This document shows positions 2,827-28,805 of a DNA stretch of 33,052 nucleotides, piece after piece; position 1 is the first letter of the stretch, and each line of letters starts with the position of its first letter. The notes beneath the pieces are model-generated. The model was given only the letters and a program-made list of their open reading frames with translations. It made no database searches and was not told where the DNA came from. Origin of the DNA: Gammaproteobacteria bacterium (lineage in GTDB: Bacteria > Pseudomonadota > Gammaproteobacteria > Burkholderiales > Rhodocyclaceae); the NCBI GenBank assembly GCA_018824085.1, contig JAHJHI010000006.1, forward strand, positions 1 through 33,052, read 5' to 3'. The position numbers and the translations under genes are program-made.

Positions 2827-2928
2827 CTGGCGAAATCCCCGAATAAACAGAAAGCAGACAGCCCGCAAACATGGGCCGCGGTTCGGAAGACCGCACGACG
2901 GCAGCTTCCCGGCAGACGCCATGGAATG

Positions 2929-5011: not shown

Positions 5012-5012
5012 T

Positions 5013-8957: not shown

Positions 8958-9661
8958 GCGGCGTTCCGGCGTTCAAGCAGCAACCTGACGATCTCGAAAT
9001 CGAGCTCGCTGTCGATATCGATGGAACGCTCTTCTGGCATCACATAGAGCGCGGTATCAGGGTGGAACAGGCCGTCCCGCCCGAAAAGCGCCTCGCGTCG
9101 CCAGACGTAGATAGACGCATTCATGTCGTAACACTCAGGCGCATCCTGACGACGAACAATCGGATTGGCCGGCCGCTTTGACAGGTCGATGCGGCCGTCC
9201 GGCATGCGTTCGACAAGATTGAAATAGGGAGAACGGCGGGCCGGCGCTGCAGTGATGAGATTTCCGGCATTTGCTTCGCGTAACTGCGCAACGGCAGCGA
9301 GGACGTCCTCGGGCAACCGGAGAGGGGACGTACAGTCCAGATCGACAATGATGTCTGCCTGCCAGCCAAGCAGGTGCTCGGCCGACTCCACCGCGTGCCG
9401 AATGACAGGCAGCTTGCCGGCCGCGTCGCTCGCAAGATCCGCCGGACGAACGACCAGCACGTCGACCCCTGCGTCGGACGCCAATTCACGGTAGAGCTCG
9501 CTGTCACTGCTGAACGCAATCGCCTCGAAAAGACCGCTTGCGCGAGCCTGGCACACCGTATGCGCAAGCAACGGCTGCCCCGCGACGATGCGGGCATTCT
9601 TGTTGGGAACACCCTTTGAGCCACCACGGGCGCATATCGTGCACAAAATTCTGACTGGCAT
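8954..9661 (-). CDS. neuA: CMP-N-acylneuraminate/legionaminate cytidylyltransferase (NeuA/LegF type)
   Basis: A 235-residue enzyme with the N-terminal nucleotide-binding motif ARGGSKGVPNKN (residues 11-22), FSSDSELY, DLDCTSPLR and the C-terminal SIDIDSELDFEI typical of CMP-sugar synthetases. It activates a nonulosonic acid with CTP, giving CMP-sugar and pyrophosphate for a glycosyltransferase. It is the first gene of the compact nonulosonic acid block, and its ATG is preceded by a 67-base gap after the propeller-like gene. The GTase that would use the CMP-sugar is not obvious by family in the window. The next gene overlaps it by 4 bases. NeuA, LegF and PseF are hard to tell apart by eye. The neighbouring enzymes point to LegF. 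Confidence 0.93.
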   Translation of the reverse strand: MPVRILCTICARGGSKGVPNKNARIVAGQPLLAHTVCQARASGLFEAIAFSSDSELYRELASDAGVDVLVVRPADLASDAAGKLPVIRHAVESAEHLLGWQADIIVDLDCTSPLRLPEDVLAAVAQLREANAGNLITAAPARRSPYFNLVERMPDGRIDLSKRPANPIVRRQDAPECYDMNASIYVWRREALFGRDGLFHPDTALYVMPEERSIDIDSELDFEIVRLLLERRNAA

Positions 9662-10823: not shown

Positions 10824-10830
10824 CCCCCGC

Positions 10831-11856
10831 TCACACCACGAGACGTGGGGTTGCCGCGCCACGCCAGTCACCGTCCGCCACCGCGACAACGCGCATGTGG
10901 CTCGATAGCAGGTTGGCCTGCAACAGGCGCTGAAGATCGTCGCGGGCCACCGCATCACCCAAGATCAACCGCATCGCCACGTCGCTGCCGGACGTCTCGG
11001 AACGTCGATCAAGACAGCTTTGTATCCTTGCAACATCAAGCTTGCCCGGCGTGCAGATCTCCACGACGCGAAAACCATTGCGCTCCAGCAGCGTGCGTAT
11101 CGACAACGGGTTGTACAGGCGCACATGATCGAACAGGATGTTCGACGAATTTCGCCCCAGCATTCGGGTTTCCACGCTGCGCTCGTTCGGTGTCGACAAA
11201 ATGAAGGGCGCCCCCGGTTTGAGCACCTGCCGGACCGCGCGAAGAAACATGTCGGGCTCCACCACATGCTCGATCAATTCCCACGCAAAAACAGTATCGA
11301 ACTGCCGTGCGCTGTCCATGAGGGCTTCAAAGCCTTCAGTCAGAATTTCCACGTTGGGCAGGCCAAGTTTCAGCGCCTGCGGCTCGAGGAGAACGATGCT
11401 TCCGACGATGTTCCGCGCCGCAAGCTCTTCTGCAAACTCCCCGTTGCCGGCACCGAACTCAAAGGTCGTTGCCGGCTTGATACCCATGCGTGCCCAGACA
11501 TCGGCCGCGTAATCTGCCCGCTCGCGATACATGGGTTTACGAGTCTCGCGCATTTGCGCTGGCAGCCGCTCACGCCAGAAGGCCATCGCGCGACTCTTGC
11601 GCACGAAGTCCAGATGCAGGCTTTCGATCGGCCCCGGCGAGATATACAGCGTCTCGCACTCAGAACAGCGCCGATAATTCAACGATTGGTGCACGAACGC
11701 ATGTGGCACGGTACTGCCGTGGCAGGCAGGGCAACATGTATCGGAAAACTCGGATTCATGCGCACGCAGATCGTCTATGTCGAGTTGCATCAGGCGGTCA
11801 AACTCCTCCGCCACGCCCTCTGGATGAATGTCCCTTATCTCGATCTTGTCTTTCAT
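10831..11856 (-). CDS. SAM-dependent methyltransferase with N-terminal zinc ribbon
   Basis: A 341-residue class I methyltransferase. Paired cysteines CPAC (42-45) and CSEC (64-67) form a probable zinc ribbon, as in several sugar C- and O-methyltransferases. The SAM-binding motif is FEFGAGNGEFAEEL (from about 132), with a WELIEHV motif and STPNERS further on, matching Methyltransf_23-type proteins. A substrate sugar, or sugar nucleotide, is likely from the context. Its ATG overlaps the stop of the O-antigen ligase-like gene by 4 bases. The C-terminal 60 residues (after VARIQSCLDRR) fit no motif I know. Whether it methylates carbon, oxygen or nitrogen is not visible. Confidence 0.85.
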   Translation of the reverse strand: MKDKIEIRDIHPEGVAEEFDRLMQLDIDDLRAHESEFSDTCCPACHGSTVPHAFVHQSLNYRRCSECETLYISPGPIESLHLDFVRKSRAMAFWRERLPAQMRETRKPMYRERADYAADVWARMGIKPATTFEFGAGNGEFAEELAARNIVGSIVLLEPQALKLGLPNVEILTEGFEALMDSARQFDTVFAWELIEHVVEPDMFLRAVRQVLKPGAPFILSTPNERSVETRMLGRNSSNILFDHVRLYNPLSIRTLLERNGFRVVEICTPGKLDVARIQSCLDRRSETSGSDVAMRLILGDAVARDDLQRLLQANLLSSHMRVVAVADGDWRGAATPRLVV

Positions 11857-14324
11857 TTCGATACCCGTAGTTCACCAGCACGATCACTGGGAGCAAAATA
11901 CATTTCAATCTCGGAAAGCCCCGCGGCGAGCCCGGCGGAATGTCCGCCTGCATCGAAACGCAGTCGATAGTTCGCAAAGGACTGTGATCCGTAAAGAGAA
12001 AACGATGACGGTGCTGATGCGTCCTGACTGAGGGTCACGCCTTCGCGACGATCCAGCTTTGTCCACGATGCGCCGTCATCCGACCCTTCAAGGACCCATC
12101 CGTATGCATCCAACTTGGGCATGCTTCGGTTCGCCATCGCCGTAAGACGATATATTCGCAACGGTGTCGAAGACATTTCCGGCACAGCGAAACTGACCTC
12201 CGCCCCCTCTTCCGCGGGCCAGTAAACGACCGAACCAAAGTTGAAATCGGCAAGCTGCGCCGGCGCACCCGAAACATTCTTTCCGATACGGATACCGGCG
12301 AAGGGTGCGTAATTCGGCAACACTCGCGGCGCACTCTCGGCATCTGGTCGCGCCAGCAGGGCCGGGGTTCTCCGCGCACCCGCGAAAATGAAACTGACCA
12401 CCGGCTGAGCAGATGGCATCAGCCACCAATTCGGAGGAAGGGTGATCGCCAGCGCCTGATTTCGATGCAAGTGTCGCGGCGGCCCGAGCGACGCCACCAG
12501 ATGAGGAAACGCGCTTCGGCTCATTGGATTCCAGAGTATCCAGACCCCGTCGAGCGACAAAATCGGCGTACTGTCATCCAGCACCCGCACACGATCGGAA
12601 TCAGCACCCCGCAACCGAAGAAGCCAGGTCAGCAAGGGACGGAAGTAAGGTTCATTGACGTACACAAGCTGCTTTTCGCGAACGATATCGGCGCCATACC
12701 GCCCGGCAAGCTCGATTACCGGAAACACATAGCGGGGACTGGTCAGCAGCGCCCAACCCAAGGTCGACAGGAACAGCATGGTCAGCGCAATCCGGGGCAA
12801 TGCAAGCGTGCGTCGATCATCCGTTCCCATTTGGCGCCGCGCGACTGCCGCCACGGCAATGCCAGCAACTGCAAAAGCCACACCGATCAACTCGTTTCGC
12901 TCCTGCGGCAGGAACAGCGAAACGACCAGAAAGCTCAAAAGCATCGACAACGCGACTATCCGGATCCTGGCTTCTTCATCGGCGCGAAGGCGCAACCCGG
13001 AGCCCCATCCTGCGACGGCAAATATTGCGAGAAATGCAGCCAGTGCCGGCAATCCAGCCATTAGCGCGACGTCAAGATAAAGCACGTGCGTGGAGTACGT
13101 GCTCAGAAGACCGTTGAACGAATTGCCTTCCAGCGGCAAATCCAGCGTTCCAACCCCGGAACCCAAAAGCCCGGCTGACGACAACCTGCGCAGTCCGCCC
13201 TGTGCCAAGGACGAACGTGCGGCATTGGCGGTCGCCACGGCTGCAACGGTGGTTGGCCCGGCTGCGCCCGAACGCGGTTCCGCAACGTCAGTAACACGCG
13301 CGGACTCCGGTGGCATCTTTGTCAAACTGGGTTTCAGATAGACCACATTTTGCGCCACGACTACAAGAGCAATTCCGACAACAAAGGCTCCAAGCCACTC
13401 CCGCCGGAACAGCAGCCCCGCCAGTAGCGTGGCCAAGCCGCACGTCAAGGCGAGGCTGACAGCGCGTGTATTGTCGAGGAACATCACTGCCAGAAGACCA
13501 ACCGCGGCAACCCAAGCGAGCCATCGCCCTCTCCCGTTGGTCAGTGCCATCCACGCCAAGGCGCCAAAACCGGCAACAAAGGCCGCAGGTGCATGATAGT
13601 AATCGGTTCCGCGAACCCGCTGAAACCCTTCAGACACGCCCGAAATGGCTGCAATGACATATGAACTGTCGTTAACGCACAACTGGAGCGCAATGACAAC
13701 CCCTACGGCAAGCGCACCCAAGCCGATCGCCTGCATCGCGCAGCGCAGTCTTTCGCCGCTTGACAGACTCATTGCAAAGAGAACTGCCCAGTATATCCAC
13801 GTCGCCCATCCGGACACGCCTGTGGCCATTCGGGCAAGCACAAACGGCTCTGTTTGCAGCCCGATCCGTATGCCCCAACCGAGAACAGCCCATCCGAAGA
13901 AGGCGCCCAGCGCGAACGCAAAGGCGCGCTTCACCCGGTCCTCGCCCGACGCTGTCAGTGCATACAAAAGCGCACCCACGACAATGGAGTCATAGACGAG
14001 CAACGCCGCGTCCGGCGCCAGACCGAGCGTCTGACCAAACACGTCGGTCAGCGCATGAATGACATGATCAACCGGCGAGGACGCCATTGAAGTCAGCCAA
14101 CTGATGCCGGCGAAGGCGAGAAGCGCCGCCAGTCCCACAGCAAGCACACGATGAACGATCCGCGGCATGGCTACGCAGACAAGGACCGTGCAGCCTGCGA
14201 GTACGCGCAGGCCACCCTGCCAGACAGGCAGCATTGGCAGCGCAATAGCGCCAGTCAGCAGAATGATCAGAGCGCCGAAAATCCAGTCCGGCACCAGCCG
14301 GACGCGCGACGAAAGCAACGGCAT
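11853..14324 (-). CDS. O-antigen ligase/polymerase-like membrane protein with C-terminal discoidin-like (F5/8 type C) domain
   Basis: An 823-residue protein. About ten or more hydrophobic segments fill residues 1 to about 490, with a large soluble loop before the last group (around KMPPESARVTDVAE to GSGVGTLDLPL), the layout of Wzy/WaaL O-antigen ligase-like proteins. One more hydrophobic segment (ALTMLFLSTLGWALL) is followed by a soluble region. Residues about 692-823 resemble a galactose-binding/discoidin domain: the core motif is WVLEGSDDGASWTKLD, followed by a yxxYRLRFDA strand. The start at 14324 lies one base after the upstream stop. A longer frame to 14426 adds 34 residues that overlap the upstream gene and lack membrane character. 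It probably polymerises or transfers lipid-linked glycan on the periplasmic side. Ligase or polymerase cannot be decided. Confidence 0.82.
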   Translation of the reverse strand: MPLLSSRVRLVPDWIFGALIILLTGAIALPMLPVWQGGLRVLAGCTVLVCVAMPRIVHRVLAVGLAALLAFAGISWLTSMASSPVDHVIHALTDVFGQTLGLAPDAALLVYDSIVVGALLYALTASGEDRVKRAFAFALGAFFGWAVLGWGIRIGLQTEPFVLARMATGVSGWATWIYWAVLFAMSLSSGERLRCAMQAIGLGALAVGVVIALQLCVNDSSYVIAAISGVSEGFQRVRGTDYYHAPAAFVAGFGALAWMALTNGRGRWLAWVAAVGLLAVMFLDNTRAVSLALTCGLATLLAGLLFRREWLGAFVVGIALVVVAQNVVYLKPSLTKMPPESARVTDVAEPRSGAAGPTTVAAVATANAARSSLAQGGLRRLSSAGLLGSGVGTLDLPLEGNSFNGLLSTYSTHVLYLDVALMAGLPALAAFLAIFAVAGWGSGLRLRADEEARIRIVALSMLLSFLVVSLFLPQERNELIGVAFAVAGIAVAAVARRQMGTDDRRTLALPRIALTMLFLSTLGWALLTSPRYVFPVIELAGRYGADIVREKQLVYVNEPYFRPLLTWLLRLRGADSDRVRVLDDSTPILSLDGVWILWNPMSRSAFPHLVASLGPPRHLHRNQALAITLPPNWWLMPSAQPVVSFIFAGARRTPALLARPDAESAPRVLPNYAPFAGIRIGKNVSGAPAQLADFNFGSVVYWPAEEGAEVSFAVPEMSSTPLRIYRLTAMANRSMPKLDAYGWVLEGSDDGASWTKLDRREGVTLSQDASAPSSFSLYGSQSFANYRLRFDAGGHSAGLAAGLSEIEMYFAPSDRAGELRVSK

Positions 14325-14325
14325 C

Positions 14326-15672
14326 TCAGCCCATCCGCAGGGTGGAGACTCCGTAACCGCCACGCGGCCCTGCCGCCCCCACACCGACATCGCTGAGTTC
14401 CTCGGGCGCCATGGTCTGGCCATCAAGAACGTAGGTCCAGTGGCTCCCGGGTTCGATTACGTCCAGGTTGTCGTGCAGATAACGCCCATTCCGCGTCTTC
14501 AGCGCGAGGAAAGGCTGCGGCCCGAAAACTCGTCCGCTCATTAACCGGATATGCAGACGACTGCCACCACGCGTGAGCGAAAACTCGGGGGCAGCGTTCT
14601 CCGTGATATCTGGGGAAATATGGGCCAAGTGCCGCTGTGCCGCATCCTCGGCGCCCGAAAACCGGATCCTGACCCCTGGAAAATCCTTTCGGACGCTTTG
14701 CAGCAATTCCCTGACCCGGCGAACGTCAGGACGCAAATCGCGATAGTCGTGATCTGCGAACGACAGAATCGCACTCCCGTTTGCCTGTGCCTCGGAAAAG
14801 GCCTCGGCCACATCGGATGCTGACAGCTGCCGCAGACGGGTGCCGACATTCAGGCACCGGAATATCCAGCGCCGACACTGCCCGACACGTTGATGATCGT
14901 CATGATGCGGCCGATACCCTAGCCAAGATTGCGGCGCTCGACTCCAGTCGCCAAAGCGTCCGAACTGCGTATCCTGCTGCGCGCAGTTCGAATCGCGGCA
15001 AGCCTGGTTCGCGTAGTCAAAGGGAATCCACTGCTCCAGAAAAGCATGTGAATCCGGGCGCTCGGCGTGGAAACCCGGTCTGTTTGTCGTCGGAAACCAG
15101 CGATCATCAATGATGCGCCGAGCGATGACTGAAAGCAGAACATCCATGCTATTCGAATACGAAGTCGCCGCAGCAAGCGGCTGCCGGCTGAGTGATAGCG
15201 GATGAAAATGCCAGTTGATCTCGTCAAGGTGGCTGCTGGTCGCGGCGAGCATGTCGCGATAGAAATAGAAGACCTTGCCGTAGCCAAGATCCTTGCGCCG
15301 GGGATTGGCGACATAGCCCATGTGATCGAGACAATGCCAGCTATACACCCAACCGCGACCGAAATCATCGACCATTTCACGGCGGAAGTGCTGGTCGAGC
15401 GCGTCCGACAGCATCGCTCGAATATCACCCCAGTTCCTGTTGTAGGCAAGCAGTTCCGGCGCGACCACGGCGGCAACCTGTCCTTCGAGGCCGTCGAGCG
15501 GAACCGTCTGGCACTGTAACGCGCGCAGCATCTCATGCGACGGTTCCAGACGCAGGCCGAACAACTCGTCAATACGACGGAAAGTCGCCTCGATATCTTC
15601 GTCGAGGGGGCCTTCCGTATCGATGCAGTGCACGACATGCAGCACGGGGTCATATTCTGGAACAGGGGTCAT
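14326..15672 (-). CDS. DTEG protein 1, polysaccharide deacetylase-like, unknown substrate
   Basis: A 448-residue protein without signal peptide, paralogous to the gene at 19320-20672. Shared landmarks are the N-terminal H-x-I-DTEGP (residues 13-21), YSWxCxDHxG (109-118), the HFHPxS motif, FxAERPDSHxFLEQ, a HDDxQ motif and a C-terminal module with FGPQPFLALKTRNGRYLHDNLD. An acidic pair near the N terminus plus an HxH motif recalls the metal site of NodB-type polysaccharide deacetylases, so a metal-dependent carbohydrate esterase or amidase is possible. That is inference by motif only. Its ATG overlaps the stop of GT-B-like protein 1 by 4 bases, and the two paralogues are each next to one of a pair of GT-B-like proteins. 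Confidence 0.8.
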   Translation of the reverse strand: MTPVPEYDPVLHVVHCIDTEGPLDEDIEATFRRIDELFGLRLEPSHEMLRALQCQTVPLDGLEGQVAAVVAPELLAYNRNWGDIRAMLSDALDQHFRREMVDDFGRGWVYSWHCLDHMGYVANPRRKDLGYGKVFYFYRDMLAATSSHLDEINWHFHPLSLSRQPLAAATSYSNSMDVLLSVIARRIIDDRWFPTTNRPGFHAERPDSHAFLEQWIPFDYANQACRDSNCAQQDTQFGRFGDWSRAPQSWLGYRPHHDDHQRVGQCRRWIFRCLNVGTRLRQLSASDVAEAFSEAQANGSAILSFADHDYRDLRPDVRRVRELLQSVRKDFPGVRIRFSGAEDAAQRHLAHISPDITENAAPEFSLTRGGSRLHIRLMSGRVFGPQPFLALKTRNGRYLHDNLDVIEPGSHWTYVLDGQTMAPEELSDVGVGAAGPRGGYGVSTLRMG

Positions 15673-16916
15673 TTTTGTGTGGTCCTGTTCATTTCAAGGC
15701 TATAGCGGCGGAGCAGCACAGTATTCTCAATCAGGTCAGAAATTCTATCGGATGCGCCACCCGGCCTCGGCAGTTGTGCACGCAAACGCTTCATGTCATT
15801 TGCGCATGCACAGTCGGTCAGCAACTGCATCAGGCCGGCCTCCGCCTCCTCAAGGGTTTCAACGGCCAACGCGCCGTCCTGTTCACCGTAGGTGACAGCA
15901 TCCCGATAGGCAGAAACACGGATTACGAGAACAGGCTTGTCGCATAGCAGCAGCTCCCAGCCAACCGTTGACGTCAACGTCACACCAACATCGCAGGCAT
16001 GGATCACGTGCGACAACGCTTCATCGGGCAAGCTGTGAATGCAGCCATCAGGAATACTTTCGTTCGCGTGATTCGTACTGCTGGGGTGCAGTCGCACGAC
16101 CAGGCGCCAGCCGTTACGCCGGCACGCCTCAGTCAGGTGAGCGCGTACACGCCGGGGTAGCTCCGGATCACCAGGCTCTGGCTGTTCGGCCCAAAAAACG
16201 AGCTTCTCGTCAGCGCCGACACGACGCTCCCGCCGCCACGTCCTGCCCGACTCGCGAAGGGATACGTCAGCCAATGGATCAAACATCGGACTGCCTGTCA
16301 TATGAATATCAACGCAATTTCGACCTGCTGCGATCATCCGGCGCACGACATCATGTCTGGACACGGCCAGCACATGGCCGTTGTCAGGCCGGCTCAACCA
16401 TTGCTCTTCCAGTAAACCGAACAACTCGATCATGCACAGGCTGGGAACGTCCATCTGAAAGGCAGCACGCAGTGCAGCCTTCTCCATCCGGGGGGAAGTG
16501 GTGGCCACCACGACATCCGGCGCAAGCTCCGACAAAATCCGGCGCATGAACCGTACCGGTGAAAGAGCGTTCAACCCCAGCTGTTCGTAACGTCGCCACG
16601 CGGCGTCTTCGCCGAGGTCTTCCGCCAGTTCGAGGAAGGATGTGCCGAGATAGGCAATTGACTCTGCGCGCGACAGGCCCTTGCCATCGGTATGGTGCCG
16701 CTGTGCAAGCCGCTCGCCAAGCCTGTGGATATCGGGATTGGACACATCCGTGAAATCGATGGGTCTCGAATGTGGAATTCCCGCTCGGCGGGCCACTTCA
16801 CCTGCCGTAGTCAGTGCAAGCAGATGACACTCGTGCCCGCGCGTCACGAGTGTCTCGTAAAGAGGCAGGATCGCAGCAATATGGGCGCCACCGTAACATG
16901 TCAGAAACACTTTCAT
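15669..16916 (-). CDS. GT-B-fold glycosyltransferase-like protein 1
   Basis: A 415-residue protein opening MKVFLTCYGGAHIAAILPL, the strand-loop-helix of a GT-B fold. The C-terminal half has RLHPSS, then ACDVGVTLTSTVGWELLLCDKPVLVI, the usual nucleotide-sugar binding segment shared by CDP-glycerol phosphotransferase-like and UDP-GlcNAc 2-epimerase-like proteins. It is paralogous to the protein at 18102-19316 (both begin CYGG-H and share TTSPR-E-A-LRAA and GSP-FD). A role in adding a sugar or sugar phosphate to the growing glycan is likely. The donor, and whether it is the nonulosonic acid, cannot be read. The ATG overlaps the upstream acyltransferase stop by 4 bases. Confidence 0.82.
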   Translation of the reverse strand: MKVFLTCYGGAHIAAILPLYETLVTRGHECHLLALTTAGEVARRAGIPHSRPIDFTDVSNPDIHRLGERLAQRHHTDGKGLSRAESIAYLGTSFLELAEDLGEDAAWRRYEQLGLNALSPVRFMRRILSELAPDVVVATTSPRMEKAALRAAFQMDVPSLCMIELFGLLEEQWLSRPDNGHVLAVSRHDVVRRMIAAGRNCVDIHMTGSPMFDPLADVSLRESGRTWRRERRVGADEKLVFWAEQPEPGDPELPRRVRAHLTEACRRNGWRLVVRLHPSSTNHANESIPDGCIHSLPDEALSHVIHACDVGVTLTSTVGWELLLCDKPVLVIRVSAYRDAVTYGEQDGALAVETLEEAEAGLMQLLTDCACANDMKRLRAQLPRPGGASDRISDLIENTVLLRRYSLEMNRTTQK

Positions 16917-18088
16917 CGACGGGGGCTTTCGGTCACGGGGCGATGCACCGCCTTGCCACCCGATGCAATGGGAAGGCTGCGGCGACCCGACAGAAATGCG
17001 GCAACGCGCCGGTAGTGCCGTTCAAACAGAAACCAGAACACCACGGAAACAACGTTACACGCGACAAAAAAAATAAGGAAGTCAAGTACCGGCTTGCCGG
17101 TAAAAAGGCCGAAAGCATGCAACAGAACAATGAAGCTGTAGTGAATAAGGTACAGTGAATACGAATAGTCAGCAGCAAACCGCGTGACCCGGTTACGCGC
17201 GCCGTCTTTGCGGTCCATGCGAAGCAAAAACAACGCCGCACAACCGATTATTATCAGCACATACAGATTGAAATCGTAAAAAATCAGCCTTTCGAACGAA
17301 GCACGATGCTCAAGCCAACCCGTCCACGCCAGACGGGCAACGAATAGAAGCAGCACCACACCGAACACCCCGCGCAGCACCCACTTGACCCCGACTGACG
17401 GCGACGGCACCCCTGGCGCCTTCTTCGCCCGCCAGTAGAGCCAGGCCAGCCCCCCCGACATGCACCACAACAGACTGAGCCCCGGGCCGGTTCCTGCAAC
17501 CATATTGAACAGCGGCACAGGCAGGGCAACCATGAGCGCCAGCACACGGGGCCACGTCTGAGCCCCACCTTGAAAGCCGAAAAGAAGCAGGCCGAAAGTG
17601 ACGTAGAGCCACCATTCGACCGCTACTGTCCACAACGGGCGCGCACTGCCGAATGTCGCCAGCTTGAATACGGACAAGCCCATTATCTGATCGATGAACA
17701 GGCCCGCCGGATGTTGCTGAAGCATCAGCAGCGACGCCACGAAGTGCCGCACCTTGTAGTAGTCGCCATAAATCTGTGTTGGAGCCCATGCACGCACTGC
17801 AGAGTCCATTGCCAAGATACACAGCAACGCGGGCAGATAGGGCACGAAGACACGGCAAAACCGGTCCGTCAGATACCCTCGCAAGCCATACCCTGGACCT
17901 TCGAGCCGGTTCAATGTCGTATAGACGATAAGAAAGCCGGAAAGCACGAAGAAAATCACCACTCCCAGATCACCGATACCGAGCGAATGCCCCGGATATA
18001 GCACAATCGAATAGATATGGCCGATCAACACCATCTGGGCTGCGAACACACGCAGCGCATCGAGCAGTGTGGCTTGCAATGGATTCAT
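16913..18088 (-). CDS. Acyltransferase-3 family integral membrane protein (OafA-like)
   Basis: A 391-residue protein with about ten hydrophobic segments. The N-terminal motif LDALRVFAAQMVLIGH carries the family arginine and histidine (H24), followed by GVVIFFVLSGFLIVY and RFCRVFVPYLPALL, all standard for acyltransferase-3 enzymes that O-acetylate surface polysaccharides at the inner membrane. SYSLYLIHYSFIVLLHAFG near the C terminus is also typical. It has no SGNH domain fused to it. The ATG at 18088 fits the family. An open frame reaches a TTG at 18112 and would overlap the upstream gene. It lies at the centre of a symmetric arrangement of paralogous genes. Confidence 0.92.
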   Translation of the reverse strand: MNPLQATLLDALRVFAAQMVLIGHIYSIVLYPGHSLGIGDLGVVIFFVLSGFLIVYTTLNRLEGPGYGLRGYLTDRFCRVFVPYLPALLCILAMDSAVRAWAPTQIYGDYYKVRHFVASLLMLQQHPAGLFIDQIMGLSVFKLATFGSARPLWTVAVEWWLYVTFGLLLFGFQGGAQTWPRVLALMVALPVPLFNMVAGTGPGLSLLWCMSGGLAWLYWRAKKAPGVPSPSVGVKWVLRGVFGVVLLLFVARLAWTGWLEHRASFERLIFYDFNLYVLIIIGCAALFLLRMDRKDGARNRVTRFAADYSYSLYLIHYSFIVLLHAFGLFTGKPVLDFLIFFVACNVVSVVFWFLFERHYRRVAAFLSGRRSLPIASGGKAVHRPVTESPRR

Positions 18089-18101
18089 GGGAGCTGCCCA
18101 C

Positions 18102-19316
18102 TCACTGCCCAAGGCCCGCTAGCGACAAGACGAGATCCCGTACCCGCACCGTCGCCGAAGCATCCGTCGGATACGCCAGCTTCAGGAGATCCGGCGGCAC
18201 GCGTGCGTCCAGGGCGGCCTGCGCATAATCAAGCGAGGGCACGTCGACGGCGAGGCCATATTCGGCGTACGGCGGATAGCCTGCTGATGCAACGGTTACC
18301 ACTGGTTTGCCCAAAAGCGCAGCCTGCAGTCCGACGGTAGACGTTTCGAGAATGACCTGATCCGCCGCATGGAGGCAAACCTCGATCGGGACGTCGCCAG
18401 GGCAGATGCTGCCCCGGTTCAACACTTGGCCAACCGGAACTACCGGCTTGTTCGGATGCTGCCTGACAAGGAACACGGTGTCAGGACGCGACGCGCAGTA
18501 GTCCTCAAGGAAAACGATCATTCTTGCTGTGTCCAGAAAGGGCTTTCCTATCATCGACACGGATGCTGACGGGCACGCCCACAGCAGCAGGCGCCGTTCT
18601 GGCCCGCACCCGAGCGCGCGCCGGAGCTGCGCCGCCGGCTCGCGGAAATCCACATCGAACAGCGCATCGAACGCCGGACTGCCTGTCACGTGAATGCTTC
18701 CGTCTTCAAAGCCGCCGGCGACGAGAAACCGTCCGACCGCATTCGCCATCACCGTAACATTGCGGGCGTAGCCAGGAGCGCAGATATAGGACGATTCGGT
18801 CTGCAGAAACAAGTCCGACACCGCGAGAGTCTTGACACCCTCACTGCGGGCCGCGCGCAGCAACGCAAGCTCGGATCGAGGACTGGTAGTCGTTACAACG
18901 AGATCCACCGGGTTCTCGCGAAGATGGCGCCGCATGGCCTCGATCGGCAAAAAGCACTTCCGGCCTTCGCGCAAGAACATCTCAGTCGCCGCGTTGACAC
19001 CATGAGCCAACTCGAGATCGCGCAATCCGATCGCATAATAGGCCAGCGAATCCTGTTCCGTCACATCCGGATGCAGCGGACGCTCCAAAACGGGCCTTGC
19101 GCGCTCGCACCATGATATGTCCTCGGCTCGCAGCAGCGCACTGTAGCCAAGCGCATCGATTCCGGCCCGCCGGAATGCCGCGAGTGCCGTGGTGAAACCC
19201 AAAACCTGAAGAACGACATCATCGTGATCCGCCAGCGCACGGATAACCGGCATCAGGCTCTGAACATGACCGCCACCATAGCAGGCGAAAAGAATCCGAA
19301 CCTTGCACCGGCCCAT
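18102..19316 (-). CDS. GT-B-fold glycosyltransferase-like protein 2
   Basis: A 404-residue paralogue of the protein at 15669-16916. It opens VRILFACYGGGHVQSLMPV, has LVVTTTSPRSELALLRAA in the middle, HVTGSPAFDALF before the linker, and VRQHPNKP with ADQVILETSTVGLQAALLGKPVV in the C-terminal domain, where the sugar nucleotide should bind. The region LLLWACPSASV replaces LVFWAEQPEPG of protein 1. The same uncertainty applies about donor and acceptor. The start ATG follows the stop of the adjacent DTEG gene after three bases, and an acyltransferase gene lies downstream. Confidence 0.82.
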   Translation of the reverse strand: MGRCKVRILFACYGGGHVQSLMPVIRALADHDDVVLQVLGFTTALAAFRRAGIDALGYSALLRAEDISWCERARPVLERPLHPDVTEQDSLAYYAIGLRDLELAHGVNAATEMFLREGRKCFLPIEAMRRHLRENPVDLVVTTTSPRSELALLRAARSEGVKTLAVSDLFLQTESSYICAPGYARNVTVMANAVGRFLVAGGFEDGSIHVTGSPAFDALFDVDFREPAAQLRRALGCGPERRLLLWACPSASVSMIGKPFLDTARMIVFLEDYCASRPDTVFLVRQHPNKPVVPVGQVLNRGSICPGDVPIEVCLHAADQVILETSTVGLQAALLGKPVVTVASAGYPPYAEYGLAVDVPSLDYAQAALDARVPPDLLKLAYPTDASATVRVRDLVLSLAGLGQ

Positions 19317-19319
19317 GAA

Positions 19320-20672
19320 TCATCCGACCAGATTGTCATAGCGCAACACCACCGTATTGCCCAGCACGTCGTTCGCAGCAACAGCGATGGTCTCAACGTC
19401 TTCCCATGGCAGCGTATCGCCATGGAAGGCGTAGTACCAGATGCGCCCGGACGAATCAAAATCCAGATTGTCATGGATATAACGCCGGGAACGGGTCTTG
19501 ATGGCAAGGAAGGGCTGCGGCCCGAATACTGAGCCCTGCTCGGTCACGATCTCCACATAAGACACATCCTTGCCCGGCTGTTCCGGCCGAAAATTCAATG
19601 ACATCGCCAGCGGTGGCTGCTCGGCTTGCTCCGGAGCCAGCTGCGTACGAAATGCATCACGACAACTACTGTAGAAGAAGGGGATCTCGGGGTACTTCTG
19701 CGCCGCAACGCGGAGAAACCCGAACGCCGCCTCGACTTCCGGCACAAGGTCGCGCCAGTCATGGCTGCACAGTCCGAGCACCACCTGATCACCTTGCCGG
19801 GCTCGCTCGAATGCGATCTCCATCTCCATCTGGGTCATACGGGCGACACGACTGTTCAGGTTAAGGGCACGCCCGATCAAGCGACGGCAGGCGCCTGGAA
19901 CCTGATAGTCATCGTGCGACGGATGATAGACGGACCAGTCGTGCGGCGCCTTTCGCCAATTTCCCGACCGTCCATTGCGAAAATCAATGGAAGCATCGAT
20001 GTCTGCTGTGTCCGCAGTAGCCATGTTGGAGATGTCATACGGAATGAACTGCTCCAGAAACCAGTGGCTGTCCGGGCGCTCGGCCTGAAAACCGGCACGA
20101 TAGGCAGCGGGGAAGAACCCGCGGTCAATGACACGGCGGCACAGTATCTGGTAGAGCTCGTCGCTTCTCAGATAGTGCGTTGCGCATCGATGGGCATCAC
20201 GGTAGGTCGACATCGGATGGAAATGGAACTCCACCGTATCCCGCGCCCAGGGCTGGCGACGCACGAGCGCCGAGTAGTGATCATGGATATTGTGGTGGCC
20301 TATGTCCCGCTTGCGCGGATTCTCGAGGAATCCCACATGATCCATACAGAACCACGAATAGGTCCAGCCGTTCCCCGCGCTGTCGGGAAGTTGAAAACGA
20401 AGCTCGCGCGAACACGCGACCTCAAGCATCTGATCGATCTCTGTCCAGGTGCCGAGTGTATTGGCGCGATGACTGCGCAGCATTTCGCGCACCGCAGCAG
20501 TCCGCTCACCCAAATCAACCGCTCCGTCCTGCAGACGTCTGAGATTCGACGGTGTCGGCTCGATGCCTGTCACCCCGAACAGATCCCCAAGACGTTCGAA
20601 CTTCGCTTCGATTGACTCATACAGCGGTCCTTCGGTGTCGATTGCATGGACAATGTGCACGGCCCCGCTCAC
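19320..20672 (-). CDS. DTEG protein 2, polysaccharide deacetylase-like, unknown substrate
   Basis: A 450-residue protein and close relative of the one at 14326-15672. It has HIVHAIDTEGP (residues 6-16), YSWFCMDHVGF, EFHFHPMS, FQAERPDSHWFLEQFIPYD, YHPSHDDYQVPGACRRLI and the C-terminal FGPQPFLAIKTRSRRYIHDNLD. The conserved D/E and H positions are those one would expect of a metal-dependent carbohydrate-active enzyme. There is no signal peptide, which argues for cytosolic action, unlike most deacetylases. The start is a GTG whose GTGA overlaps the sulfotransferase stop by 4 bases. I know of no characterised member. Confidence 0.8.
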   Translation of the reverse strand: MSGAVHIVHAIDTEGPLYESIEAKFERLGDLFGVTGIEPTPSNLRRLQDGAVDLGERTAAVREMLRSHRANTLGTWTEIDQMLEVACSRELRFQLPDSAGNGWTYSWFCMDHVGFLENPRKRDIGHHNIHDHYSALVRRQPWARDTVEFHFHPMSTYRDAHRCATHYLRSDELYQILCRRVIDRGFFPAAYRAGFQAERPDSHWFLEQFIPYDISNMATADTADIDASIDFRNGRSGNWRKAPHDWSVYHPSHDDYQVPGACRRLIGRALNLNSRVARMTQMEMEIAFERARQGDQVVLGLCSHDWRDLVPEVEAAFGFLRVAAQKYPEIPFFYSSCRDAFRTQLAPEQAEQPPLAMSLNFRPEQPGKDVSYVEIVTEQGSVFGPQPFLAIKTRSRRYIHDNLDFDSSGRIWYYAFHGDTLPWEDVETIAVAANDVLGNTVVLRYDNLVG

Positions 20673-21724
20673 GCAATACCCCCGACCTCGGCATTGAAAC
20701 GCTCCGGAAAGACAATCTTCATCTCATGCTCGTAAGGATCCGTGCGATAGCCCTGCGCACCGCGCCCGGTCGTCAGCCACCCCCTGAACCGTTCGGCGAG
20801 GAAACCTTCCGAAACGAAATCATGCAGAGCGCTCCATTCCTGCCGATTCGGCGTGATGCCCGACGAGGCATATCCCATTCGCGAGAAATAGGGTTGCGAG
20901 ATCATCTCGATGAATGCCGTCTCAGCGCGAGTGAGGTGCTCAGGCCATCGCGGTTTCGCATCGGGCAGCGCCTGATAGGTGGTTCCGAACGACGTGTTAG
21001 AAGCCCAGTCCTCGCCATCGGCGCGCAACGCGCCTGCGTCAACCATCGTCGGAGAATACTCAAGCTCGAGGAAATCACACATCGAACGCGCGTTCGATTC
21101 GGGATTGGCGGCAATATCCTCCGCGCGCACGACCAGCACCCGATCCGGGAAACGCAACAGCAGGGACTCGAGGCACTCCGCCGCGCCCCGGAAGTTGAAC
21201 GCAGCATCGAGATACGAATGGCCTGGCTCGAACGTCATCAGCTTGTATGACACGGCCACATCACGCGGATCGCGAAAGATGTGAATGGCCTTTCCCGCCG
21301 GAAACATGTCGAGAAAGCGTTCGATATCCTCCCACTGCACCGCGAGCTTCTCAGCCCAGCGCACCGTTGGCGCGGCACCCATGCACAGCAGGTCACGCAT
21401 AATGAGTTCATACATCAACGCATAGGATGGCTGCGCGGCAAGGGCTCCGTCCGCCAAGATCTCTTCGACGTTGATGGACAGCCCCCATCGCGTGTTGATG
21501 CGCGCATACGTATCCTTGACGAGAGCCACCCGGTTCTCGGGGATCGCCATGTCGCCATAACGTCCGGCGCAGAAACGCAGGAACTTGACCGTCGACGATG
21601 CGGCCCGAATTTCCGGGTGTGCCCCTAGCATGGCTGTCAGGAACGTGGTTCCCGAACGATATACGCCCGACACCATGATCGGACGAGTGCCGGGCACTTG
21701 TCCGAAAGGAAATGTCCGATTCAT
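20669..21724 (-). CDS. Sulfotransferase family protein (PAPS-dependent)
   Basis: A 351-residue protein with the 5'-phosphosulfate loop VSGVYRSGTTFLTAML (from about residue 18) and the 3'-phosphate motif IHIFRDPRDVAVSY about 130 residues further on, both standard for PAPS-dependent sulfotransferases. The C-terminal half contains helices and the tail PERFNAEVGGIA of no known meaning. The likely acceptor is a hydroxyl or amino group of a sugar in the locus glycan, but a small molecule is possible. PAPS supply genes (cysD/N/C) are not in the window. It overlaps both neighbours by 4 bases, so it belongs to the operon. Confidence 0.88.
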   Translation of the reverse strand: MNRTFPFGQVPGTRPIMVSGVYRSGTTFLTAMLGAHPEIRAASSTVKFLRFCAGRYGDMAIPENRVALVKDTYARINTRWGLSINVEEILADGALAAQPSYALMYELIMRDLLCMGAAPTVRWAEKLAVQWEDIERFLDMFPAGKAIHIFRDPRDVAVSYKLMTFEPGHSYLDAAFNFRGAAECLESLLLRFPDRVLVVRAEDIAANPESNARSMCDFLELEYSPTMVDAGALRADGEDWASNTSFGTTYQALPDAKPRWPEHLTRAETAFIEMISQPYFSRMGYASSGITPNRQEWSALHDFVSEGFLAERFRGWLTTGRGAQGYRTDPYEHEMKIVFPERFNAEVGGIA

Positions 21725-22515
21725 TCGTTTGAACTCGCTGCAAGAAAGGTTCTCGAGTGGGCGCGCGAGAACTCCGGAAAGAATTCACACGCCTCTCCAC
21801 GTGTCAGCACCACCAGATACTCGTAGAAGCGCTCGGGCGACCCGGTCACGAAATCCGCCTTCGCAAAATCACCTCGCCGCGGAAAGCAGAGCAGAGCGTC
21901 GACCCGATGCCCCTGCGCCTTGAGCAGCGCAAGCATGTACAGCGTATCGGTGAAGTAGTTCGGATGGTTCTTGCGCCGGGCACCGGCTTCCGCGTCGAGC
22001 GCGGCCGTGTCGTCGTCGTGATAGTGATCGTGCTTCCCGGTGAAAAATATCCGTGCTCCTGGACGTGTCACTCGCAGGAATTCGCGCAGCGCGCGATTCT
22101 GGAAGGTGGCATCGAATGTCGCGATGCACGCCAGATTGTCGAATGTACCGTCGCCGAACGGCAGTGATTCTGCGGACGACTCGGAAATGCTGTCGATCCT
22201 TTCGTGCCCTAGCCAGGATTCGCGCGCGGCGTCGACCATGGCAGCCGATATATCCACCGCACTGAGCCTGAGACCGTGTTCGAGGTAAAGCGGAAACATG
22301 CGCCCCCACGCGCACCCGACTTCCAGCACGCTACCGGGATTGAAGCCGAACCTCTCGAAGAATTCGCGATAGATCTCGTCCCCTTCTGTATTGGCATCGC
22401 CTTCGATCACCTTACTGCTGCCGACGCCCGCCTCATCGACGCGTGACTTCCAGTAGCGGTAGTAGGAGTCGTTCCAGTACTGCTTGCGCGGATCTTCTTC
22501 GCTCATTGTCCCCAT
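21721..22515 (-). CDS. Class I SAM-dependent methyltransferase
   Basis: A 264-residue protein with the SAM motif VLEVGCAWGRMFPLYLE (from about residue 63), then LSAVDISAAMVDAAR and LPFGDGTFDNLACIATFDA, the usual order of a Methyltransf_11/25 domain. The end has a helix-rich region with FVTGSPERFYEYLVVL. The substrate is presumed to be a sugar in this locus. ATGs at 22515 and 22506 are both possible starts. A frame reaching 22599 would overlap the amidotransferase gene and has no support. Its stop overlaps the sulfotransferase ATG by 4 bases. Confidence 0.86.
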   Translation of the reverse strand: MGTMSEEDPRKQYWNDSYYRYWKSRVDEAGVGSSKVIEGDANTEGDEIYREFFERFGFNPGSVLEVGCAWGRMFPLYLEHGLRLSAVDISAAMVDAARESWLGHERIDSISESSAESLPFGDGTFDNLACIATFDATFQNRALREFLRVTRPGARIFFTGKHDHYHDDDTAALDAEAGARRKNHPNYFTDTLYMLALLKAQGHRVDALLCFPRRGDFAKADFVTGSPERFYEYLVVLTRGEACEFFPEFSRAHSRTFLAASSNE

Positions 22516-22541
22516 CCAAACATTCAACACGGCGGCGCCGG

Positions 22542-23756
22542 TCAGTCCTGCTTCCAGATCGGCTGACGCAAACGCCACTGATCTCCGTCCCGCAACCACA
22601 GGTGGGGCGTGCGAGCGTCCTCGATCACCTCGTCAAACTGGTCCAGTGTGATATCCATATACTCCAGACAGTCGGCCAGATACTGATGCGGGTACTCGCC
22701 GTCGAACCGCTTCACGAGCGCAACGCCCTCGTCACGCGTGATATCGCCATTCCTGATTTCCTGAGCGGAATCGTACGTCGCCCGTCCGATGCCGAACTTG
22801 ATGTGTGCCGTGTAGTAATGCAGCCAGTCGATCTGGTCATCGAGCGAACTGTACTTGCTGTAACTACCTTCGGTACGGTGAACATTCGGGACGAAATCCG
22901 AGTTCTCGACGGCGAAGTAATAGGTTTCCTGCGGATGCCAACGCAGGTAGTACCCTAAGTAGTGCACCTCGGACCCGGTCTCGATCAGACGATTCGGGTC
23001 CACTGGCAGATAGGCCTCCAGATCGGCAATGGTGAATTTATAGCGATCCATCAGCTCAAGCGCACTGAGTCCGCCGAGATAAAGCTCTTCAAGACGCCCT
23101 TCCGCGCTGTAGTACTTCGGATCGCGGGTCGGCTTCTCGTTATCCACGATCGGATTTCCGTACTCCGCCTCGTTCTCACCGAAGATCACGAGAGGAATGT
23201 CGAGCAGCGCCGACATCTTGGGGGCGAGATTCTTCTGGCCCAGGATGAAAGGCTGGAACGGATGGCACAGATTCAGGAATGCCTGCTGCGTCAGTACCCG
23301 GTGAACCTTTCGGTTCTGATGGTATGTGTAGTTGGCGAACCCGGTGTCGAGCCACTTGTTGAAGTTGTACTGTCCGATGCCGGTATAGATTGCCGGCGGC
23401 CACGTGACAAGAATCGGGTTCATCCCGTACTTGTATTTGAGCAGGTGCGCAGCCATAACACTGTCTTTTCCGCCACTGCCGGGTACCACCACGTCATAGC
23501 GACCATCAGTCCTGCGGAACCTGTTGCAAAGGTCGATCAATTGCCGCTCCCGCTCGGCCCAGTCGATCCTCTTCTTCAGCTCCGCAAAATTACAGGCATC
23601 ACACACGCCATCGTCATCGAACACAAGGGACTGCTTGAGTTGCCCCTTCACATTGCGGAACTCCACCGTGGATGCGGGCCGTTGATTGCTCATCGTGCAT
23701 TTGCGGCAGAACTTGACCTTCAGCGGGAGTCCGTACTTTCCAAGCTTGGCATTCAT
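22542..23756 (-). CDS. N-acetyl sugar amidotransferase (WbpG/PseA-like, ATP-PPase)
   Basis: A 404-residue protein of the WbpG/PseA/PtmG family. Cysteines C17/C20 and C52/C55 form a probable zinc site (FCRKCTMSNQRP, GVCDACNFAE), and the ATP-pyrophosphatase P-loop is SGGKDS at residues 94-99. Known relatives convert an N-acetyl group of a sugar to an acetamidino group using ammonia and ATP. In Pseudomonas aeruginosa O-antigen synthesis WbpG works with HisH2/HisF2, and here HisH- and HisF-like genes lie directly upstream with only 7 and 5 bases between them. The ATG at 23756 is preferred over a long frame to 23903 that enters the HisH gene. The substrate is unknown but could be the nonulosonic acid (compare PseA and Leg5Am7Ac) or another diacetamido sugar. 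Confidence 0.9.
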   Translation of the reverse strand: MNAKLGKYGLPLKVKFCRKCTMSNQRPASTVEFRNVKGQLKQSLVFDDDGVCDACNFAELKKRIDWAERERQLIDLCNRFRRTDGRYDVVVPGSGGKDSVMAAHLLKYKYGMNPILVTWPPAIYTGIGQYNFNKWLDTGFANYTYHQNRKVHRVLTQQAFLNLCHPFQPFILGQKNLAPKMSALLDIPLVIFGENEAEYGNPIVDNEKPTRDPKYYSAEGRLEELYLGGLSALELMDRYKFTIADLEAYLPVDPNRLIETGSEVHYLGYYLRWHPQETYYFAVENSDFVPNVHRTEGSYSKYSSLDDQIDWLHYYTAHIKFGIGRATYDSAQEIRNGDITRDEGVALVKRFDGEYPHQYLADCLEYMDITLDQFDEVIEDARTPHLWLRDGDQWRLRQPIWKQD

Positions 23757-23763
23757 GATGTGA

Positions 23764-24369
23764 TCACAGATCGACGAAATTCTTGAGCAGGCGAATGCCG
23801 GCGTTCCGGCTCTTTTCTGGATGAAACTGAACTCCGAAAACCGAGCCCTTGGCAACGGCGGACACGAAGACGTGTCCGCCGTGAGTGGTGAGCCCGGCCA
23901 CATCGGTGTAGTTCACGAACTCGTAGGAGTGCATGAAGTAAAACTCCGCCGTCGCGTCGATAGATGCAAACAACCTCGAATTGCCAATGTGGCGTACCGG
24001 CCGGAAACCGATGTGAGGAATCGCGGCCTTGCAGAGCACCTGTCTGACCTCACCCTCGATCAATCCGAACCCAGCCGTCTCGCCGAACTCGAACCCGATG
24101 TCTGCCAACATCTGCATGCCCAGGCAGATGCCGAGAACCGGCCGGTCTTCAGCCACGCGTTTCACCGCCTCGAACAGTCCTCGATCGTGAATCTGGCGCA
24201 TGCCCTCGGCAAAACTGCCCACCCCCGGCAACACGACCCGGGACGATTCGAGTACGTCGTCCGGAGCATTGACGATCCGCACATCCGCGCCTGCTGCAAC
24301 AAGTGCCTTGCGGATGCTCTCGATATTCCCGGCCGACCCGTAATCCACGACGCTGACATTTTTGGACAT
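23764..24369 (-). CDS. HisH-like class I glutamine amidotransferase subunit
   Basis: A 201-residue protein with a glutaminase triad: C82 in LGICLGMQML, and H183/E185 in VQFHPEKS. The N terminus VSVVDYGSAGNIESIRKAL and LPGVGSFAEGM are HisH signatures. In histidine synthesis HisH feeds ammonia to HisF. In glycan loci a second copy delivers ammonia to the WbpG-type amidotransferase, and the gene order hisF-hisH-wbpG supports that here. No hisA, hisI or other histidine genes are nearby. The ATG at 24369 is chosen over a frame reaching 24420 that enters the HisF gene. Confidence 0.9.
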   Translation of the reverse strand: MSKNVSVVDYGSAGNIESIRKALVAAGADVRIVNAPDDVLESSRVVLPGVGSFAEGMRQIHDRGLFEAVKRVAEDRPVLGICLGMQMLADIGFEFGETAGFGLIEGEVRQVLCKAAIPHIGFRPVRHIGNSRLFASIDATAEFYFMHSYEFVNYTDVAGLTTHGGHVFVSAVAKGSVFGVQFHPEKSRNAGIRLLKNFVDL

Positions 24370-24374
24370 AGCAT

Positions 24375-25109
24375 TCACCCCATGCCCTTCAGGGCCGTCT
24401 TGATATCGGAAATGCTGCACACTCCATAGTGCAGCACGCTGGACACTGCAACGGCATCCGGACGTGCGCGCTCCGCCATCCGAACGATATCCTCGAGGGA
24501 ACCGGCGCCACTGGCCGCAATGATCGGCACCGAAACAGCTGTCTTCACCTGTTCGATCAACTCGACATCAAAGCCCCGTCGGCGCCCGTCACGATCGACA
24601 GACTGCACGAGAATCTCTCCTGCCCCGCGCTGCTGGGCCTCGCGCACCCACTCAATCACGTCCCGACCGCTGCGCTCTCTTCCGCAATCGGTGTAGCACT
24701 CCCAAGACGCACCCCAGTGCTTGGCCTCGACATTCAGCATCACGGCCTGCGACCCGAACATGCGCGCCGCCTGGTCGATGATATCCGGATCACGCTGCAC
24801 CGCCTCCGTATTCAGCGCGACCTTGTCGGCGCCACAATGGAACAGGCGGGAAATGTCCTCGATGCTGCGAATGCCGCCACCTGCAGCGAACGGCACAAAG
24901 ACATGTTCCGACGCGCTGCGAATCTGATCAAAAAGAATTTCCCGGCAATAAAGGGAAGCAACGATGTCAACGTACAAGATCTCGTCCGCCCCTTGCTCGT
25001 AGTAACGCCGTGCAAGCTCGGCCGGCTCACCGATCTTGCGCAAGCCCTCAAAATGGACCGGTTTCACTACATAAGGAGGCTTGACATCTAGTTTTGCGAT
25101 CACTCTCAT
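24375..25109 (-). CDS. HisF-like cyclase subunit (ammonia-channelling partner)
   Basis: A 244-residue (beta/alpha)8 protein of the HisF family, with ADEILYVDIVAS, AAGGGIRSIEDISRLFHCGADKV and ASGAGSLEDIVRMAERARPDAVAVSS. In place of the usual catalytic HisF opening ARVIPCLDVK it has MRVIAKLDVKPPYVVKPVHFEGLRK, the form seen in sugar-cluster copies such as P. aeruginosa HisF2. The ATG at 25109 fits this. The alternative TTG at 25151 adds 14 unlikely residues. It probably carries ammonia from the HisH-like subunit to the amidotransferase rather than working in histidine synthesis. It starts 66 bases after the acyltransferase stop and is followed closely by the HisH-like gene. Confidence 0.88.
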   Translation of the reverse strand: MRVIAKLDVKPPYVVKPVHFEGLRKIGEPAELARRYYEQGADEILYVDIVASLYCREILFDQIRSASEHVFVPFAAGGGIRSIEDISRLFHCGADKVALNTEAVQRDPDIIDQAARMFGSQAVMLNVEAKHWGASWECYTDCGRERSGRDVIEWVREAQQRGAGEILVQSVDRDGRRRGFDVELIEQVKTAVSVPIIAASGAGSLEDIVRMAERARPDAVAVSSVLHYGVCSISDIKTALKGMG

Positions 25110-25160
25110 CGGGAGGTCTTTCGGGCGTATCCGGTCAGGGAGAACATTCAAGGCAGGCAG

Positions 25161-26886: not shown

Positions 26887-26896
26887 CACGAGGGGC

Positions 26897-28750: not shown

Positions 28751-28805
28751 CTGTTCAGCATTCCTCAGGGGTATTGTTTCGTTAGCACATCACACTTGGC
28801 TCGGC

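Follow-up and report, generated by a model that had tools for sequence, protein, structure and literature searches.

The described clusters nearest to the locus treated here are those for legionaminic acid with acetamidino modification, namely the Campylobacter ptm genes and the lipopolysaccharide locus of Legionella. Their NeuB, NeuC, LegC-type aminotransferase, cytidylyltransferase, amidotransferase and methyltransferase are also coded in a stretch of 33,052 nucleotides from a member of the Rhodocyclaceae (assembly GCA_018824085.1, contig JAHJHI010000006.1), called the window below. The window differs from these clusters by the addition of two gene pairs, each coding a DTEG protein and a GT-B-like protein (GTB), of a sulfotransferase, of two acyltransferase-3 proteins and of an AsnB-HpcH-PglC block. 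The DTEG-GTB pairs are the subject of this report. A further likeness, to the 8-epilegionaminate genes elaABC of Acinetobacter, is one of gene neighbourhood without sequence comparison, with the roles of ElaB and ElaC presumed. As in elaABC, whose ElaA is described as a putative oxidoreductase (PMC9676051), a Gfo/Idh/MocA oxidoreductase, a cytidylyltransferase and a short-chain dehydrogenase/reductase (SDR) are found together at window positions 7198-9661. The same trio also occurs in L011, L013, L014, L029 and L089 (L and G numbers are our handles for loci and genomes). In bacterial sialyltransferases an HP motif binds CMP-Neu5Ac (PMC2169525), and this motif is common to transferases of 3-deoxy-D-manno-oct-2-ulosonic acid (Kdo) too (PMC10148158). 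The GTB proteins share GT-B type and HP motif with these sialyl- and polysialyltransferases and with the Kdo transferases KpsC and WbbB. The DTEG protein is alike to the CE4/NodB family (PF01522) in the order of its motifs, as judged by eye, with no profile or PDB fold match between the two.

Inspection of open reading frames defines five tightly packed genes on the minus strand which, read from 20672 to 14326, code DTEG1, GTB1, an acyltransferase-3 (AT3), GTB2 and DTEG2, in agreement with the order described in an initial annotation of this DNA. DTEG1 (19320..20672; 450 residues, GTG start) is an uncharacterised protein with an N-terminal domain that carries conserved motifs and a beta-rich C-terminal domain. 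DTEG2 (14326..15672; 448 residues) is its paralogue across a deep split, with the motif residues intact. GTB1 (18102..19316; 404 residues) is a GT-B-fold protein with RxHP and TST motifs, and GTB2 (15669..16916; 415 residues) is its paralogue. AT3 (16913..18112; 399 residues, TTG start) is assigned as a membrane acyltransferase-3, for O-acyl transfer, by its Acyl_transf_3 match (E 1.8e-24) and its hydropathy. Adjoining genes of the module are 3 bases apart or overlap by 4-11 bases. The DTEG proteins are identical at 170/437 residues (39%, E 9e-101) and the GTB proteins at 126/414 (30%, E 8e-39), paralogies that the initial annotation had proposed and that, by these alignments, are both far beyond chance. 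No third DTEG is coded in the window's own genome at E 0.001. The identical five genes are present in identical order in three more Methyloversatilis genomes (G003, G009, G012). The AT3 match of G003 (L010 12597-13732) is split in two pieces, perhaps by a frameshift or an assembly error of this metagenome-assembled genome. The best explanation of the module, put forward tentatively, is that the GTB proteins are GT-B transferases and the DTEG proteins metal-dependent editing hydrolases, that each pair is an old block and that two such blocks met in one operon.

The pairs are conserved in their adjacency. DTEG1 is followed by GTB1 in nine genomes, in this order 9/9 times (window, G003, G009, G012, L011, L012, L013, L015, L017), and GTB2 by DTEG2 in six, order 6/6 (window, G003, G009, G012, G044 and the gammaproteobacterial metagenome-assembled genome of L012, G841, in its stretch L087). 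The majority of these loci were retrieved by means of DTEG, so they are not an unbiased sample; in the searches that started from GTB, each close GTB had a DTEG beside it. Either pair can also stand alone: pair 1 does so in four loci (L011, L013, L015, L017), and pair 2 in one genome (G044), which carries DTEG2 only. The genomes of the four pair 1 loci have no second strong GTB, and their fetched DNA codes no DTEG2. In the DTEG tree 30 rows split 15/15 with 100/100 support, the two copies of the window falling on opposite sides; L087 is outside this tree; the identity of its DTEG to DTEG2 is 60%. A separation into a GTB1 and a GTB2 group is seen in the GTB tree as well, with less certainty, as long branches meet at the split. 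Within the genus AT3 separates the two pairs; in L011, L012 and L013 it comes after an SDR gene, and it was not found in L015, L044 and L045. Inverted or tandem duplication was discarded as a source of the arrangement, each copy being nearer to outside relatives than to its partner in the window. The symmetry around AT3 is the meeting of two old pairs and not a mirror or local duplication, given the position of the DTEG copies across the deep split and the separate occurrence of the pairs. The pairs look like inherited two-gene blocks.

The DTEG and GTB families are both rare and patchily distributed. DTEG loci were collected from a GTDB genome scan with DTEG1 (22 loci), whose pattern-based search missed at least one copy (L087), so that its counts are lower bounds, and from 101 relatives, five of them with DTEG, the window's own genome included. 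Among 369 genomes of the class and 398 of the phylum, the own genome counted in each, DTEG is present in 3 and 1 and GTB (E 1e-20) in 4 and 3, respectively. After removal of duplicates by coordinates (L010=G003, L019=G009, L017=G340) there are 26 DTEG genomes, namely the 22, the window's, G012, G044 and G458. The family is carried by 4/13 genomes of the same genus, the window's included, and is found in Pseudomonadota, Bacteroidota, Verrucomicrobiota, Thermodesulfobacteriota and Cloacimonadota. No relative was found among the 32 pattern matches of an IMG/VR search with the DTEG alignment, nor any match in plasmids (searched with DTEG1 only) or phages (DTEG2 only). NeuB is present in 26/26 DTEG genomes. 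Its presence alone is weak evidence, because NeuB-family matches are also found in 9/14 control genomes; nearness is the stronger evidence, and NeuB lies within 16 kb of a DTEG on the same contig in 23/26 genomes (the NeuB match of L024 being only 25% identical and the NeuB of L030 cut by a contig end). The other three are L022, on a contig of 13.6 kb, G044, whose contig ends beside DTEG, and L020, where a NeuB is likely about 15 kb away.

The suggestion of the initial annotation that each DTEG/GT pair may be a functional unit is in line with this adjacency and fixed order, and does not extend to an obligatory partnership, since no GTB adjoins DTEG in 16/26 DTEG genomes. A strong GTB is absent from the whole of 15/22 genomes searched, two of the 15 having weak partial matches. 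For four distant GTB proteins (30-42% identity; G377, G214, G570, G807) the surrounding 18-20 kb that were fetched code no DTEG, and the whole-genome DTEG searches over apparently the same genomes list none for these four. GTB tracks the AsnB-HpcH-PglC block more closely than it tracks DTEG. All three proteins of the block are coded in 14/15 GTB-bearing stretches, the exception being the 18.5-kb contig L087, while in DTEG-only stretches HpcH and PglC are found in 0/16 and AsnB in 1/16. Over the 22 loci HpcH is present in 7/7 with GTB and 0/15 without (Fisher p 5.9e-6, relatedness not corrected). The 16 genomes with no GTB beside DTEG, the four GTB genomes without DTEG nearby and the closer bond of GTB to the block would all fit a rival reading, in which DTEG and GTB are functionally unconnected and owe their pairing only to the shuffling of genes within a polysaccharide locus. 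This view is set against a fixed-order adjacency in 15/15 close pairs from different families, most of them fetched through DTEG and so not an unbiased sample, and is held to be rather unlikely.

The GTB model (mean predicted local distance difference test score, pLDDT, 89.6) has the two Rossmann domains predicted for the GT-B type. Its Foldseek search returned 244 PDB matches at E 0.001 or better (best E 1.2e-12). The 50 listed, which we take all to be of GT-B type, are mostly UDP-GlcNAc 2-epimerases with a few glycosyltransferases (CalG1, PglA). R285, the HP motif H287-P288 and T325-S326-T327 are invariant in 13 GTB rows. GTB1 is narrowly over the Capsule_synth cut-off (21 versus 20 bits), and GTB2 has weak matches to Epimerase_2, Glyco_transf_4 and Glyphos_transf, all below cut-off. 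In the PDB profile search GTB matches KpsC (E 0.087) and 8csb/5fa0 (E 0.04), labelled N-acetylglucosaminyl transferase and presumably WbbB. GTB1 also has a short match of 74 residues to the BFO_1060 family of glycosyltransferases (NF046086; E 4.1e-4), far below the family cut-off with 19.6 bits versus 200. We take this family to be linked to the pseudaminate transferase of Tannerella; a literature search for BFO_1060 together with nonulosonic acid gave no match. Pseudaminate transferase activity is attributed to GtfS/Tanf_01245 in PMC6120980. The best guess for the GTB donor is a CMP-nonulosonate, because NeuB is present in every GTB genome examined.

Several observations count against a nonulosonate transferase. 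In fold as in PDB profile (E 4.3e-6) the closest proteins to GTB are UDP-GlcNAc 2-epimerases, the KpsC and 8csb/5fa0 matches being weaker in the same search. For the D/E-D/E-G motif of sialyltransferases there is no copy in GTB2 and a single candidate, an EDG at 204, in GTB1; the HP motif, moreover, need not mean a CMP donor. The epimerase matches are the ground for a different assignment, as nucleoside diphosphate-sugar 2-epimerase-like enzymes that transfer nothing, to which can be added an hhalign probability of 97.2% over 262 columns between the C-terminal part of GTB and NeuC, and Epimerase_2 at E 2.7e-5 for GTB2. At 23.6 and 11.8 the Epimerase_2 scores fall short of the cut-off (30.6), and the operon already holds a NeuC over cut-off (5013-6161). 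In addition, the His of the NeuC FHP segment, presumably catalytic from work on WecB/NeuC, finds no equivalent, either in the hhalign alignment of GTB1 or, by eye, in the corresponding stretch of GTB2. An epimerase function was considered unlikely, and the assignment as a whole is given very little credence.

In the DTEG family H150, H152, R192, D254 and H304 are identical in 27/27 rows, and D12 and E14 in all 26 rows that reach them. The DTEG1 model (mean pLDDT 88) predicts that roughly the first 350 residues make up an N-terminal region, to which a beta-rich C-terminal domain is joined. In this model D12/E14 end the first strand, H150/H152 and R192-x-G-F each end another, and H304 lies just past a later strand, followed by a helix and a short strand. 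The resulting order (D-x-E, HxHP, RxGF, late strand ending in His) resembles by eye that of NodB/CE4 proteins, and the order of predicted secondary structures would be compatible, by eye only, with a deformed beta/alpha barrel. The His spacing is HxH in DTEG versus HxxxH in CE4. Profile comparison does not extend this likeness. DTEG against CE4 gave hhalign probabilities of 0.05-0.4%, within reach of unrelated controls at 0.07-1.0%, with 28 CE4 proteins (31 loci fetched) used whole or as sets of 8 and 18 in local and global mode; two CE4 sets matched each other at 98.4%, and the set of 8 is little diverse, so that the test is not a strong one. None of the 27 DTEG members has a Pfam CE4 match up to E 10. 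Foldseek of the DTEG model found no PDB match at E 0.001 or better, and no deacetylase is among the 50 matches listed, which are mostly immunoglobulin-like or major histocompatibility complex (MHC) proteins. These negative results weigh against a NodB-like hydrolase: membership of DTEG in CE4 was dropped for want of profile support, and the likeness is retained as a lead.

Other affiliations of DTEG fared no better. Pfam and NCBIfam scans of the 27 members up to E 10 gave no meaningful match; the 11 Pfam and 7 NCBIfam families that did appear, none of them in more than two members (best E 0.013), were judged chance, as were the PDB sequence-profile matches, two to hemagglutinin entries (E 0.002, 0.006) and two above 0.3. 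A relation to DUF2334 found no support (hhalign 0.1%, 4 rows). Two matches of the DTEG1 model at E 0.001 or better were found in the viral structure library BFVD, one near full-length to an uncharacterised Catovirus protein (A0A1V0SB23; E 7.4e-7, TM-score 0.37-0.41) and one to a Gordonia phage esterase (E 7.7e-4, probability 0.38). The available parts of the nonulosonic acid literature on polysaccharide deacetylases and sulfotransferases name no DTEG-like family, other possible names of DTEG not having been searched, and the available text of PMC7371886 mentions no deacetylase. DTEG is probably cytosolic and soluble, because its hydropathy has no transmembrane-like peak: the 19-residue maximum is at most 1.62 in all members, versus 2.58 in AT3, some rows starting at the matched stretch and not at the true start.

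The C-terminal domain of DTEG invites the view that the protein is a glycan-binding or scaffold partner and not an enzyme, the beta-rich domain keeping hold of the acceptor during the reaction of the neighbouring transferase or sulfotransferase. This domain is well predicted, its FGPQP and HDNLD stretch is among the best conserved, and the immunoglobulin-like and MHC matches are presumably due to it (aligned ranges are not shown). The invariant Asp, Glu, His and Arg set of the N-terminal domain looks catalytic, however, and the partners of DTEG vary between loci, so that no single client protein explains such a role, which appears improbable. A role as glycoside hydrolase or lyase, by which wrongly assembled nonulosonate units would be trimmed or proofread, would agree with the acid-rich N-terminal domain next to a sandwich-like one, with the probable cytosolic location and with the restriction of the family to genomes with NeuB; no glycoside hydrolase family is matched in the Pfam and NCBIfam scans, and this activity, too, is considered unlikely. 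Within the reading of DTEG as an editing hydrolase, N-deacylation is a possible activity of which we are doubtful.

The company kept by DTEG points to a broader function. Among 11 families counted around the 22 loci, the sulfotransferase is its commonest close neighbour, being near DTEG in 12/22 loci and within 250 bp in 10/22. GTB is within 250 bp in 7/22, WbuX is found in 12/22 and the methyltransferase in 8/22. That 10/22 loci have no nearby sulfotransferase speaks against the explanation put forward above. Scans of 20 of the 38 further neighbours listed revealed four radical SAM proteins, an aminoglycoside-3-N-acetyltransferase-like protein, an ATP sulfurylase and a polysialyltransferase-like protein, 6-8 of the 20 having no Pfam family at E 0.001. 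A more fitting description of DTEG is that of a tailoring protein for nonulosonic acids at large, which in some loci is coupled to a glycosyltransferase, and we consider it very probable that it is a tailoring factor of nonulosonate loci. In a Pelagibacter-like genome an ATP sulfurylase and a sulfotransferase follow DTEG (L024 11820-15173), which suggests a local supply of 3'-phosphoadenosine 5'-phosphosulfate. A Bacteroidota locus with DTEG and without GTB codes the polysialyltransferase-like protein (L018 14145-15188; A-2_8-polyST E 9.3e-6, over cut-off). A DUF2172/DUF4910/HTH_47 protein near DTEG (L021 5536-6855) is taken to belong to the Campylobacter Cj1295 family. Cj1295 is tied to a di-O-methyl glyceric acid decoration of pseudaminate (PMC3068675).

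The window is best explained as one long operon, or most of one, for a surface polysaccharide with a heavily decorated nonulosonic acid; it spans one whole contig, so the operon may extend further. All genes named here are on the minus strand. The nonulosonate pathway (949..9661) comprises a PglF-like dehydratase, an aminotransferase of CBS-LegC type, a PglD-like acetyltransferase, NeuC, NeuB, an SDR, a Gfo/Idh/MocA oxidoreductase and a CMP-sugar cytidylyltransferase, which places a NeuB-type synthase, NeuC, a LegC-type aminotransferase and a cytidylyltransferase together. NeuB_NnaB (417.5 bits, cut-off 399.65) and NeuC_NnaA (398, cut-off 235.9) pass among the curated NCBIfam models, and DegT and CTP_transf_3 are over threshold in Pfam for the aminotransferase and the cytidylyltransferase. 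The nonulosonic acid is probably of legionaminate type. This is the less sure because the NCBIfam models for LegC (355.8 versus a cut-off of 420) and PseF (114.6 versus 205.7) score below cut-off and the NeuB match over cut-off is to the N-acetylneuraminate equivalog, which leaves the exact sugar unsure. The LegC-type aminotransferase (2929-4449) bears an N-terminal CBS domain, and matches of the fused length recur in L011 and L015. A 409-residue protein (9729-10958), for which neither Pfam nor NCBIfam gives a match up to E 1, has conserved neighbours, the Wzy-like protein and a methyltransferase, in the genus as well as in L087 (42%).

The Wzy-like polymerase (11853..14426; Wzy_C 21 bits, below the cut-off of 31.7) is coded next after DTEG2 here and in relatives. 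On the other side of the module the sulfotransferase (Sulfotransfer_3; 20669..21724) overlaps DTEG1 by 4 bases. Beyond it, at higher coordinates, lie an S-adenosylmethionine-dependent methyltransferase (21721..22599) and the WbuX N-acetyl sugar amidotransferase (TIGR03573, E 4.1e-93) with HisH-like and HisF-like partners for acetamidino formation (22542..25151). The block that tracks GTB, with a PglC-like initiating transferase, the AsnB amidotransferase and an HpcH/HpaI-like aldolase, is at 26329..29678, and a MurJ/Wzx-type flippase at 29621..31165. The operon also codes the second acyltransferase-3.

In the mechanism that we propose, GTB1 and GTB2 would be cytosolic transferases, each adding a different residue as the lipid-linked unit grows; their donors would most likely be CMP-nonulosonates. 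DTEG1 and DTEG2 would be cytosolic hydrolases whose NodB-like order of acids and histidines may bind a metal. They would remove an N-acyl group from the nonulosonate or from an adjoining sugar and free its amine, or otherwise edit the residue; a freed amine would be open to sulfo-, methyl- or acyltransfer. Each transferase would have arrived in an old block of two genes, together with an editing partner of its own, the two blocks meeting here. In animals, heparan N-deacetylase/N-sulfotransferase joins two such activities in one protein. By analogy, from gene adjacency alone, DTEG could be the founder of a new family of enzymes for the N-deacylation of nonulosonic acids, and the sulfotransferase with DTEG a bacterial two-protein counterpart of the animal enzyme that makes N-sulfated nonulosonates; the chance of this is judged slight. 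If true, the two DTEG-GTB pairs would mark two separately edited and separately transferred residues in one glycan.

The locus is of an ordinary kind, with one uncharacterised and oddly consistent family, DTEG. Nonulosonic acids bear unusual acyl, amidino and other groups, and to our knowledge many enzymes by which these sugars are edited have yet to be identified. The DTEG family, for which neither Pfam, NCBIfam nor PDB offers a credible match, travels with nonulosonate genes in several phyla. From the particular transferases and the sulfotransferase with which it is paired, its substrate can be predicted directly and in a form open to test.

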